A DNA stretch of 21,716 nucleotides from positions 1 through 21,716 of the IMG/VR virus record IMGVR_UViG_3300031857_001597. One strand, 5' to 3'. Positions 14,836 through 17,641 of this stretch are shown piece after piece (the stretch's first letter is position 1; every line of letters starts with the position of its first letter). A program made the translations under genes and the position numbers. The notes beneath the pieces are model-generated. The model searched no databases. It was given only the letters and a program-made list of their open reading frames with translations, and had not been told where the DNA came from. This stretch comes from a virus.

Positions 14836-14990
14836 TGGACTTGGAAACCCTTATCAATAGACACATGAAATTGGCTGTAGAACACGAAGAACTTAAAAAG
14901 AAGTACGAAGAGCTAATTTACTCCCACGAGAATCTAAAGGAAGAATATGACTCATACCGCCTCTCCCAAAAGGATAGTGGTAGACATTGA
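14832..14990 (+). CDS. Small coiled-coil protein overlapping polymerase gene
   Basis: This is a 52-aa charged protein (MMDLETLINRHMKLAVEHEE, then LKKKYEELIYSHENLKEEYD) with a clear heptad pattern. The start forms an ATGA overlap with the helicase stop. The last 44 bases overlap the start of the polymerase gene in another frame. It probably carries ribosomes towards the polymerase start and may be a fork accessory protein; that is inference. Confidence 0.55.
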   Translation: MMDLETLINRHMKLAVEHEELKKKYEELIYSHENLKEEYDSYRLSQKDSGRH

Positions 14991-16662
14991 AACCAACCTC
15001 AAGCATGACACCATCTGGGTGGTATGCACTCAAGACATTGACACAGGCGAGAAACACACATGGAACGAGGCAAGCAACTTTCAGGACTATATAAAGGACG
15101 CTACGTCGATAATCGGCCACAACTTCATCGGATTCGACGGGCATCACTTGAGCAAATTATGGAAGACCCCGATTACTTTGAAGAGGACAATCGACACTCT
15201 TATTCTGTCTCGCCTGCTAGAGCCGAGCCGCGAGAAAGGCCACAGCTTGGAAAGCTGGGGAGAAAGCCTGGGCGACGGGAAGATTAACTACAAAGAGGCC
15301 TGGGAGGGCGCTGTAGGTCGCAAAGAAGCTTACCCAGGTGAATGCTTTGACAGCCCTGCCATTGACGTTATGGCAGCCTATTGTGCCCAGGACGTCAGTG
15401 TTACATGTAAGCTTTTCCTTCACCTCGAAAAGGAATTGAAGACAAAAGAGTTTTCTCAGGAGAGCATTGATTTAGAGCATAGAGTGGCCTTCATCATTGC
15501 TGAACAGGAACGTAATGGATTTAAACTGGATGTAGAATATGCAACCATGCTTCTTGCTGACATCAAAAGAGAAATGGACATCGTATATGAACAAATGCAG
15601 CAGCGGTGGCCTCCCTACCAAAAGGAACGAGTCTCTGAGAAAACAGGAAAGCTTCTCAAGCCAGCCCAGATTGTTTTCAACCCAGGAAGCAGAAAGCAAA
15701 TTGGAGAAAAGCTCCAAGAGCTAGGTTGGAAGCCTGCGAAGTTTACAGAGACAGGACAGCCTGTGGTGGACGAGGCAGTGCTCTCCAAGGTGGACATCCC
15801 AGAAGCTCAAACCATTGCCAAGTATTTGCTCCTGCAAAAACGTGTGGCACAAATTGAAAGCTGGTTTGAATGCCTGAAGCCTGATGGCAGGGTGCATGGC
15901 AGGGTGATTACCAATGGAGCCGTGACAGGTAGGGCAGCACATCATAGTCCTAACATGGCTCAGGTTCCTGCTGTACGTTCTGAGTATGGCCCTGAGTGTC
16001 GTAAAGTTTGGACAGTTGACGCTGGTAATGTTCTTGTTGGTGTTGATCTTTCTGGAATTGAGTTGCGCTGTTTCGCTCACTACCTGAACGATCCTGAATA
16101 CATAAATGAGGTGATTAATGGAGATGTCCATACAAAAAACCAAAAAGCATTTGGAGTTAGTACACGCGATGTTGCAAAAACAGTACTATACGCCACCTTG
16201 TACGGAGCTTCGCCACCGAAGATTGGCTCGATTATTGGTGGTTCAGCGGCGGAAGGAAAAAAAATTATTGATTCTTTTGAACGAAACGTTCCTGCCTATG
16301 CAAAACTCAAGCAAAAGGTTGCTAGGTATGCTGCGAAGGGGAGGATTCCGGGTCTTGATGGACGTCAGCTTATCATTCGTTCAGAACATTCTGCTCTCAA
16401 CACGCTTTTGCAAGCAGCCGGTGCGATCATTGCGAAACAATGGATTGTCTGCTTTACGGAAAGGCTTGAGGAAGCACAAATTCAATACAAATTAGTTGCT
16501 TGGGTACACGACGAAGTTCAAATTGAAACGAAACCAGAGTATGCTTCACAAGTTCTCGAAACTGTGGTACAATCTGCTGCTCAAGCAGGAGAAATCTTGA
16601 AGTTTCGTTGTCCTGTAGCTGCTGAGGGAAAGACGGGAGCCAACTGGTATGAAACACACTAA
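14947..16662 (+). CDS. DNA polymerase, family A (T7-like)
   Basis: This is a 571-aa replicative polymerase. The 3'-5' exonuclease has Exo I VVDIETN (D13, E15), Exo II IIGHNFIGFD (D64) and Exo III AYCAQDVSVT (D149). The polymerase has motif A VGVDLSGIELR (D367), motif B RDVAKTVLYATLYG (R407, K411, Y415) and motif C AWVHDEVQIE (H521-D522-E523). Y415 sits where T7 has Tyr526, which favours poor discrimination against dideoxy nucleotides. The protein is shorter than T7 gp5 (704 aa), so thumb inserts such as the thioredoxin-binding loop are probably missing. AAAGGA precedes the start. Codon use changes near 15.96-16.0 kb. Confidence 0.95.
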   Translation: MTHTASPKRIVVDIETNLKHDTIWVVCTQDIDTGEKHTWNEASNFQDYIKDATSIIGHNFIGFDGHHLSKLWKTPITLKRTIDTLILSRLLEPSREKGHSLESWGESLGDGKINYKEAWEGAVGRKEAYPGECFDSPAIDVMAAYCAQDVSVTCKLFLHLEKELKTKEFSQESIDLEHRVAFIIAEQERNGFKLDVEYATMLLADIKREMDIVYEQMQQRWPPYQKERVSEKTGKLLKPAQIVFNPGSRKQIGEKLQELGWKPAKFTETGQPVVDEAVLSKVDIPEAQTIAKYLLLQKRVAQIESWFECLKPDGRVHGRVITNGAVTGRAAHHSPNMAQVPAVRSEYGPECRKVWTVDAGNVLVGVDLSGIELRCFAHYLNDPEYINEVINGDVHTKNQKAFGVSTRDVAKTVLYATLYGASPPKIGSIIGGSAAEGKKIIDSFERNVPAYAKLKQKVARYAAKGRIPGLDGRQLIIRSEHSALNTLLQAAGAIIAKQWIVCFTERLEEAQIQYKLVAWVHDEVQIETKPEYASQVLETVVQSAAQAGEILKFRCPVAAEGKTGANWYETH

Positions 16663-16726
16663 GCATCCTAACGGATCAGAACTTCTAAGAAAGGCAGCAG
16701 AATATGTCGAAAGCCACAGAAAGTGA
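16649..16726 (+). CDS. Very small basic protein (doubtful)
   Basis: This 25-aa frame (MKHTKHPNGSELLRKAAEYV) starts inside the last codons of the polymerase gene, with GGGAG 9 bases upstream. It looks like a short amphipathic helix. It also overlaps the following gene. It may be a coupled microprotein, but short frames in such overlaps can occur by chance. Confidence 0.35.
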   Translation: MKHTKHPNGSELLRKAAEYVESHRK

Positions 16727-16886
16727 CAATCCCGAAATCGGAAAGATTGTCATCACAGTGAACGAAAAAGATTTCTCTATCATCTGTTCTGCTTCCCTTA
16801 CAATGGCTGAAGTATTTCAGATTATGGTGACTGCTGTGAATGACCTTGCACAGCGGGATTTTGACGACGAAGAACGTGTTCATTAA
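16704..16886 (+). CDS. Hypothetical small acidic protein
   Basis: This is a 60-aa acidic protein (MSKATESDNPEIGKIVITVN, then a helix LTMAEVFQIMVTAVNDLAQR). The strand-strand-helix order suggests a small alpha/beta fold. AAAGG lies upstream. It sits between DNA polymerase and the tRNA pair. No family is recognised. Confidence 0.6.
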   Translation: MSKATESDNPEIGKIVITVNEKDFSIICSASLTMAEVFQIMVTAVNDLAQRDFDDEERVH

Positions 16887-16896
16887 GGAGAATGGT

Positions 16897-17052
16897 ATGA
16901 CGTTTGAATTTGAAGAAAACGAGGCTATGTTCATCATGCAAGTGCTGGGTGAGCTTCCCACTAAAACGGGTGCTTATGTGGTGCTGGCAAAGATGGACGG
17001 CCAGTTTAAGGCTCAGCAGCCCCCTGCTGAAGAACCCGTAGCTGTGGCGTAA
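16897..17052 (+). CDS. Small hypothetical protein overlapping tRNA-Leu
   Basis: This is a 51-aa protein (MTFEFEENEAMFIMQVLGEL, then PTKTGAYVVLAKMDGQFK). The middle resembles small conserved phage proteins with the pattern LG-LPT-TGA. AAGGAG lies before the ATG at 16897. Its last four codons and stop (PVAVA end, 17038-17052) are also the first 15 bases of tRNA-Leu, including the whole 5' acceptor strand. The frame at 16840 is an upstream extension without a site. Confidence 0.7.
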   Translation: MTFEFEENEAMFIMQVLGELPTKTGAYVVLAKMDGQFKAQQPPAEEPVAVA

Positions 17053-17121
17053 TAGGTAGCCGCAGGAGACTTAAAATCTCCCGCCCTGGGCGTGTCGGTT
17101 CGAATCCGACCAGCTACACCA
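17038..17121 (+). tRNA. tRNA-Leu (anticodon TAA)
   Basis: The acceptor GTAGCTG (17038-17044) pairs perfectly with CAGCTAC (17111-17117), followed by A and an encoded CCA. The D arm is GCG/CGC with an 11-base loop. The anticodon stem GGAGA/TCTCC holds loop CTTAAAA with TAA at 17072-17074. A variable arm (CGCCC/GGGCG) of class II type and a T arm GTCGG-TTCGAAT-CCGAC complete it, for 84 bases. It reads UUA codons. Its first 15 bases lie within the end of the preceding coding sequence. Confidence 0.93.
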
Positions 17122-17124
17122 ATC

Positions 17125-17199
17125 GCTGCTATGGCTCAACGGTAGAGCAACCGCCTTGTAAGCGGTAGGTTGTGGGTTCGATTCCTACTAGCAGCACCA
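17125..17199 (+). tRNA. tRNA-Thr (anticodon TGT)
   Basis: The acceptor GCTGCTA/TAGCAGC is perfect, with A and an encoded CCA. The D arm is GCTC/GAGC. The anticodon arm ACCGC-CTTGTAA-GCGGT carries TGT at 17157-17159. The T arm is GTGGG-TTCGATT-CCTAC with one G-U, for 75 bases in all. It reads ACA codons. It starts 3 bases after tRNA-Leu, so the pair is probably processed from the operon transcript. Confidence 0.95.
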
Positions 17200-17221
17200 A
17201 CTTTTGATAAGGACTATCAAC

Positions 17222-17641
17222 ATGACAAATCTGATTAAACCCGTTCGCGTATCCGGTGAACTTTTCTGGTCGAAGTGGATGGGAGAATTTAATACGAAGT
17301 TTGGCGACACAAATAAGTATGAATGCACCATCGGCAACCTGTCTGAAAAGGCAAAGGAAGCTTTGGAAGGTATGGGCATTAAAGTGAAATACAAAGACAA
17401 CATGGGTAACTACATTGTTGCTAAGAGCAAATTCAAGTTTGAGCCTGTGGATGAGAAAGACAACAGCGTCGAGGTGGACGCCATTGGCAACGGCTCTAAG
17501 TGCGTGGCCCTGGTGTCGGCCTACGAACACCGCATGTCAAAGCAGCACGGGCTGGCCCCGTCTGTGAAGGCTTTGGTAGTCACTCAGCTGAAAACTTACG
17601 TTCCTGAAGACAAGGAACAAGAAGAGGACATGGCTCTGTGA
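17222..17641 (+). CDS. Single-stranded DNA-binding protein (T7 gp2.5-like)
   Basis: This is a 139-aa protein with an OB-type core (KPVRVSGELFWSKWMGEFNT, then YECTIGNL, IKVKYKDNMGNYIVAKSKFK) and an acidic tail (PEDKEQEEDMAL). Such a tail in T7 gp2.5 contacts the polymerase and helicase. It coats ssDNA at the fork and helps annealing. It is much shorter than T7 gp2.5 (232 aa), as in related small podovirus forms. AAGGA precedes the ATG at 17222. The stop overlaps the exonuclease start (GTGA). Confidence 0.8.
   Translation: MTNLIKPVRVSGELFWSKWMGEFNTKFGDTNKYECTIGNLSEKAKEALEGMGIKVKYKDNMGNYIVAKSKFKFEPVDEKDNSVEVDAIGNGSKCVALVSAYEHRMSKQHGLAPSVKALVVTQLKTYVPEDKEQEEDMAL

Follow-up and report, generated by a model that had tools for sequence, protein, structure and literature searches.

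A small phage gene ends inside a tRNA-Leu gene, and the same 15-nt overlap recurs among its relatives

Bacterial selB genes that end inside the gene for tRNA-Sec (selC), or run through it, are described in Mukai 2021 (PMC8124441), and in the passages of that paper used here RNase processing is proposed to leave a nonstop mRNA for selB, which is a hypothesis there too. In Dyella/Luteibacter the stop lies inside an intact tRNA on the same strand and closely related strains have the stop before the tRNA; the phage locus reported here resembles selB/selC in both respects. The selB stop is located at tRNA nucleotides 46–48 or the tRNA is wholly nested, whereas the overlap in the phage comprises 15 nt. 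Furthermore the selB protein and its tRNA work together, whereas the 51-aa phage protein has no known link to tRNA-Leu. Going by these passages, selB/selC appears to be the closest published case, and the phage overlap would work like it, but is shorter.

Other systems share single features with the locus. In animal mitochondria (Doublet 2015, as cited in PMC8124441) tRNA processing also stands against an intact message on one transcript, but genome and processing machinery are mitochondrial. Excerpts of PMC2988022 and PMC13096335 describe SegB-type phage homing endonucleases, protein genes that are likewise packed against phage tRNA genes; in contrast, the 51-aa protein has no nuclease match. 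In mycobacteriophage Fionnbharth a tRNA-Lys overlaps protein gene 37 (excerpt of PMC10865867), however on the opposite strand, so that there is no competition over one transcript. In the titles, abstract openings and passages covered by our literature search we found no paper describing phage genes that end inside same-strand tRNAs.

The locus is part of a 21,716-nt stretch of viral DNA (the window; features in Table 1). The initial annotation had claimed that the last four sense codons and the stop of a 51-aa gene are the first 15 bases of tRNA-Leu, and coordinates and sequence agree with this: the shared bases read GTA GCT GTG GCG TAA. They also contain the whole 5’ acceptor strand (GTAGCTG within 17038–17052), as had been stated, and ARAGORN and Rfam both place the 5’ end of the tRNA at 17038, inside the coding region. 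The next in-frame codon after the TAA is a TAG (17053–17055). The gene thus terminates within an intact tRNA gene of the same orientation, as in the partial type of selB-selC overlap.

Table 1. Position of the genes, tRNAs and shared elements at the locus (window coordinates).
Feature	Position	Strand	Basis
Family A DNA polymerase gene, head of the cluster	14947..16662	+	PHROG 17, Pfam DNA_pol_A
60-aa ORF directly upstream of the 51-aa gene	16704..16886	+	ORF list, sequence
51-aa gene, core motif VLGELPTKTGA; last 15 nt within tRNA-Leu	16897..17052	+	sequence, relatives, pN/pS
Predicted RNase P cleavage site, precisely at the junction of codons 47 and 48	17037..17038	+	tRNA 5’ end, RNase P specificity
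Overlap: codons 48–51 (VAVA) and stop = tRNA nucleotides 1–15	17038..17052	+	ARAGORN, sequence
TAA stop = tRNA nucleotides 13–15	17050..17052	+	sequence, comparison of tRNA types
tRNA-Leu(UAA), CCA encoded, U13/C22 type D-arm	17038..17121	+	ARAGORN; Rfam RF00005
tRNA-Thr(UGU), 3 nt 3’ of tRNA-Leu	17125..17199	+	ARAGORN; Rfam 75.0 bits
139-aa conserved gene past the tRNAs, relatives used for the tree	17222..17641	+	ORF list, relatives

The 51-aa ORF is short and matches neither Pfam nor PHROG, and might therefore be spurious, the overlap being an open frame that runs on into the tRNA. This reading is contradicted by the evidence and we consider it scarcely credible. The ATG at 16897 is preceded by a ribosome-binding-like aaggag, and an IMG/VR scan with the protein found relatives in about 175 viral stretches, of which the best 80 were kept; scans with three other family members added more. 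The ORF list also offers a longer 70-aa reading from 16840, however the relatives align from the ATG at 16897. Residues P21, T22, A26, Q36 and Q40 are invariant in 37 aligned family members, chosen from the 76 proteins left after thinning 135 distinct ones. Between the window and the related locus L002, 18.5 synonymous and 7.5 nonsynonymous differences were counted in codons 1–47 (pS 0.653, pN 0.067; pN/pS about 0.1). Judged by this substitution pattern the ORF is under purifying selection and is a real gene. Because of this selection, and because the 15-nt overlap recurs in divergent relatives, the overlap goes beyond chance, and the dual use of the shared bases pointed out in the initial annotation can be regarded as real and conserved.

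The conserved core of the protein comprises residues 1–40; past residue 40 length and sequence vary. An AlphaFold model predicts two helices (7–19 and 26–40; mean pLDDT 83) followed by a C-terminal tail of low pLDDT (64, then 54), and it is in this variable, low-confidence tail that the overlapped residues VAVA fall. A structure search with the model returned solely uncharacterised phage proteins, none of them at E ≤ 0.001. No nuclease domain was found with Pfam or PHROG, which sets the ORF apart from the homing-endonuclease class.

Integration sites of phages can carry tRNA fragments, and U13.C22 in the D-arm is a non-standard pair in the Rfam alignment. Both would fit a tRNA-Leu that is a decayed or captured remnant, e.g. 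of an integration site, with the coding use alone being of importance, yet we regard such an origin as very improbable. The cloverleaf is complete according to ARAGORN and Rfam (RF00005 match at 17038–17118, 56.6 bits, gathering score 29), unlike the tRNA fragments of attachment sites. The 5’ strand of the acceptor stem pairs with CAGCTAC, followed by A73 and an encoded CCA, and merely 4 of 84 bases differ from the tRNA of L002, every one of them in the variable arm. Moreover, tRNA-Leu genes of the U13/C22 type, which have TAA at nucleotides 13–15, are widespread among viral contigs, most of them without a long overlapping ORF. From this comparison the type was not created for the overlap. The idea that base 13 had been mutated to make a stop was rejected on the same grounds.

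With regard to transcription, the 51-aa gene sits between the family A polymerase gene and the 139-aa conserved gene, and on the + strand a consensus scan from 16573 to the tRNAs detected no sigma-70-like promoter and no terminator-like site. Gene order and scan together make it likely that the 51-aa gene and the tRNAs are transcribed jointly.

RNase P cleaves at the 5’ end of tRNAs. The earlier claim that release of the tRNA removes the end of the coding region follows from this established biochemistry, the cut falling between codons 47 and 48. Since message and tRNA share bases, one RNA copy cannot yield both an intact message and a tRNA, and a joint transcript could be either translated in full or processed to free its tRNA, but not both. 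Ribosomes would produce the complete protein up to the moment of RNase P cleavage; the cut would remove codons 48–51 together with the stop and leave a nonstop message of 47 whole codons with its end on a codon boundary. Messages without a stop are the usual substrate of trans-translation, and the 47-codon message should be a substrate of tmRNA. In addition, a ribosome terminating at tRNA nucleotides 13–15 would, given its usual footprint, occupy the larger part of the D-arm as well as the 5’ acceptor strand, which would set translation in competition with tRNA folding.

We consider it probable that the gene shed its own stop and spacer and is now terminated by the UAA in the D-arm of the tRNA. 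The overlap would then be tolerated since the protein ends in a variable tail, and no regulatory purpose is needed. The overlap could instead be a selected switch: RNase P would end the output of the small protein, giving early protein followed by tRNA at a fixed ratio and sending the last copies of the message to tmRNA tagging. The cut on an exact codon boundary, as in Mukai’s selB/selC model (excerpts of PMC8124441), and the occurrence of the identical 15-nt arrangement at two or more points of the tree described below speak for it. However, the length of 15 nt follows from the first in-frame stop of this tRNA type, and the distribution of the overlap across the gene family and the survey of other tRNAs, both given below, also point the other way, which in our judgement makes a selected switch unlikely. 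The locus provides a simple setting in which to examine if genes ending in tRNAs have their expression shaped by RNase P processing and by ribosome rescue; the same question was raised for selB/selC and left to future experiments (passages of PMC8124441).

A match to the family was present in 287 loci, or 164 distinct ones after removing repeats. The exact 15-nt overlap with tRNA-Leu was found in seven of these (L001, identical in sequence to the window, L002, L003, L092, L144, L173 and L197), a count from which prevalence is not readable because five loci with the TAA-13–15 type of tRNA (L092, L144, L170, L173, L197) had been recruited by a DNA pattern that selects this type. The idea of an overlap confined to the window can therefore be rejected. 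In nine further loci tRNA-Leu lies 6–20 nt past the gene’s own stop, and in L071 a tRNA-Arg begins directly after it. Counted from 30 nt before to 400 nt past the stop, a tRNA start is thus present in 17/164 loci (16 tRNA-Leu(UAA), 1 tRNA-Arg). The remaining 147 have no tRNA within 400 nt, which argues against a selected switch. Like the partial type of selB-selC, the overlap is common to relatives yet absent from close ones (seven overlaps and nine spacers in the 164 loci). The relatives form a series of no tRNA, tRNA behind a spacer and 15-nt overlap, which makes the origin readable.

The 15 overlapping bases are identical in L001, L002 and L003; between the window clade and L002/L003 it is the preceding codons that differ. 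TAA occupies nucleotides 13–15 in each of the seven overlapping tRNAs and is the earliest stop that the frame meets there. None of the eight tRNA-Leu genes that carry GAA or AAA at this position is overlapped: the overlap occurs in 7/8 loci with TAA and in 0/8 without (Fisher p = 0.0014, a value inflated because the loci are related and not independent). When counted by rough lineages, as assigned by us, the overlap is found in 3/4 with TAA and 0/5 without (one-sided p = 0.048). The exception is L170, a close relative with the TAA-13–15 tRNA in which the gene still ends at its own TGA, followed by a 20-nt spacer, which likewise weighs against a switch. Its spacer is flanked by GAG twice, once as the last sense codon and once as the first tRNA triplet, and we infer that a single deletion between the two would yield the ending seen in L144.

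The number of origins was assessed on a tree of the neighboring 139-aa gene with 58 rows, of which 8 have the overlap, 9 a spacer and 41 neither. Three changes are required on this tree to account for the label “overlap”, the starred branches force at least two, and a single clade of overlapping loci is rejected (p-AU = 5.2e-7); these values come from one gene, with a bootstrap that has not settled, one long branch and several loci recruited by the tRNA pattern. On this tree such overlaps arise repeatedly among the relatives, though recombination could make a single origin look like several. The direction, i.e. that the spacer was lost rather than gained, is inferred.

For a broader view we analyzed 477 distinct lead tRNAs (no other tRNA within 150 nt before) from 406 viral loci, which stem mostly from tRNA-Leu pattern searches and are hence a non-random phage sample with some questionable ORFs of high GC content. 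At 53 of the 477, an ORF of 60 or more codons reached its end no more than 30 nt inside the tRNA, in comparison to a mean of 14.5 and a maximum of 22 in 20 Markov simulations; for ORFs of at least 150 codons the numbers were 14 and 0.35. When each tRNA is represented by its longest ORF of at least 80 aa, 29/477 end 4–30 nt inside (about 5 expected from the Markov null): 11 at nucleotides 4–12, 12 at 13–21 and 6 at 22–30. The ends peak 10–0 nt before the tRNA (53/477). After subtraction of the null the density per base is 1.04 at nucleotides 4–12 and 1.09 at 13–21, and 1.11 and 1.16 in the bins 60–21 nt upstream. A strong enrichment of overlaps at tRNA starts is therefore unsupported. The density inside the tRNA is about the same as 11–60 nt upstream, so that ending within a tRNA appears tolerated rather than exceptional; this counts against a selected switch, and the description of such dual use as uncommon in the initial annotation finds no support in this sample.

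A still wider claim would be that phages turn the D-arm stops of their own tRNAs into terminators of upstream genes and so gain a one-way switch, reached repeatedly because it pays, in which the transcript serves first as message and then as source of tRNA, with the nonstop message cleared by trans-translation. We hold this to be distinctly unlikely. Under the preferred reading of a tolerated overlap, compact phage genomes can simply let a tRNA gene terminate a protein gene. For annotation this means that trimming genes back from tRNAs would delete true gene ends.

Nuclease matches were noticed in this survey. Nine of 30 ORFs (≥80 aa, ending 4–30 nt inside a tRNA) match HNH, T5orf172 (GIY-YIG-like) or Endonuclease_7 at E ≤ 0.01, in comparison to 1 of 30 control ORFs ending 0–60 nt before a tRNA (Fisher two-sided p = 0.012). 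The nine are located in L093, L094, L110, L111, L119, L125, L163, L189 and L198, some of which are mutually related. In phage tRNA arrays it may be common for the gene of a free-standing homing endonuclease to terminate within the tRNA that follows.

Several minor features were observed around the gene. At 16648–16725 a frame overlapping the end of the polymerase gene reads MKHTKHPNG-SELLRKAAEYVESHRK up to its stop and looks like the scar of an in-frame deletion in an endonuclease-like gene of 130 aa, of which L002 has the complete form (2438–2830). An 8-bp inverted repeat, TGACAATC...GATTGTCA, is located at 16725–16753 near the start of the 60-aa ORF. By eye this ORF resembles the one in L281 whose stop touches tRNA-Leu. 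In L281 (2369), L282 (2327) and L283 (1407), related genomes, a single nucleotide is shared in this way at the same place: the final G of the upstream ORF’s TAG is also the first base of tRNA-Leu(UAA). The ORFs that end there differ, with 59 aa for L281 and 74 aa for L282/L283. Downstream of the tRNAs, TTGATA-AGGAC-TATCAA at 17204–17220 forms a 6-bp inverted repeat, in which one position differs in L002. Its loop holds the ribosome-binding-like element of the gene that follows (ATG at 17222), and the repeat could be a translational operator.

Among named phages, chosen as matches around relatives of the tRNA-Leu or the tRNA pair, no annotated protein gene overlaps tRNA-Leu in Gravdalen, Roth01, phiKZ, PA5oct, GAP32 or AsFcp_2; LAh_8 is without annotation near the match. 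In Klebsiella phage Roth01 (PQ657785.1; L529, 671–879) the CDS XNO91569.1 shares 39 nt with the 5’ end of a tRNA-Arg of the same orientation, which makes Roth01 a cultured phage in which a tRNA/gene overlap could be tested.
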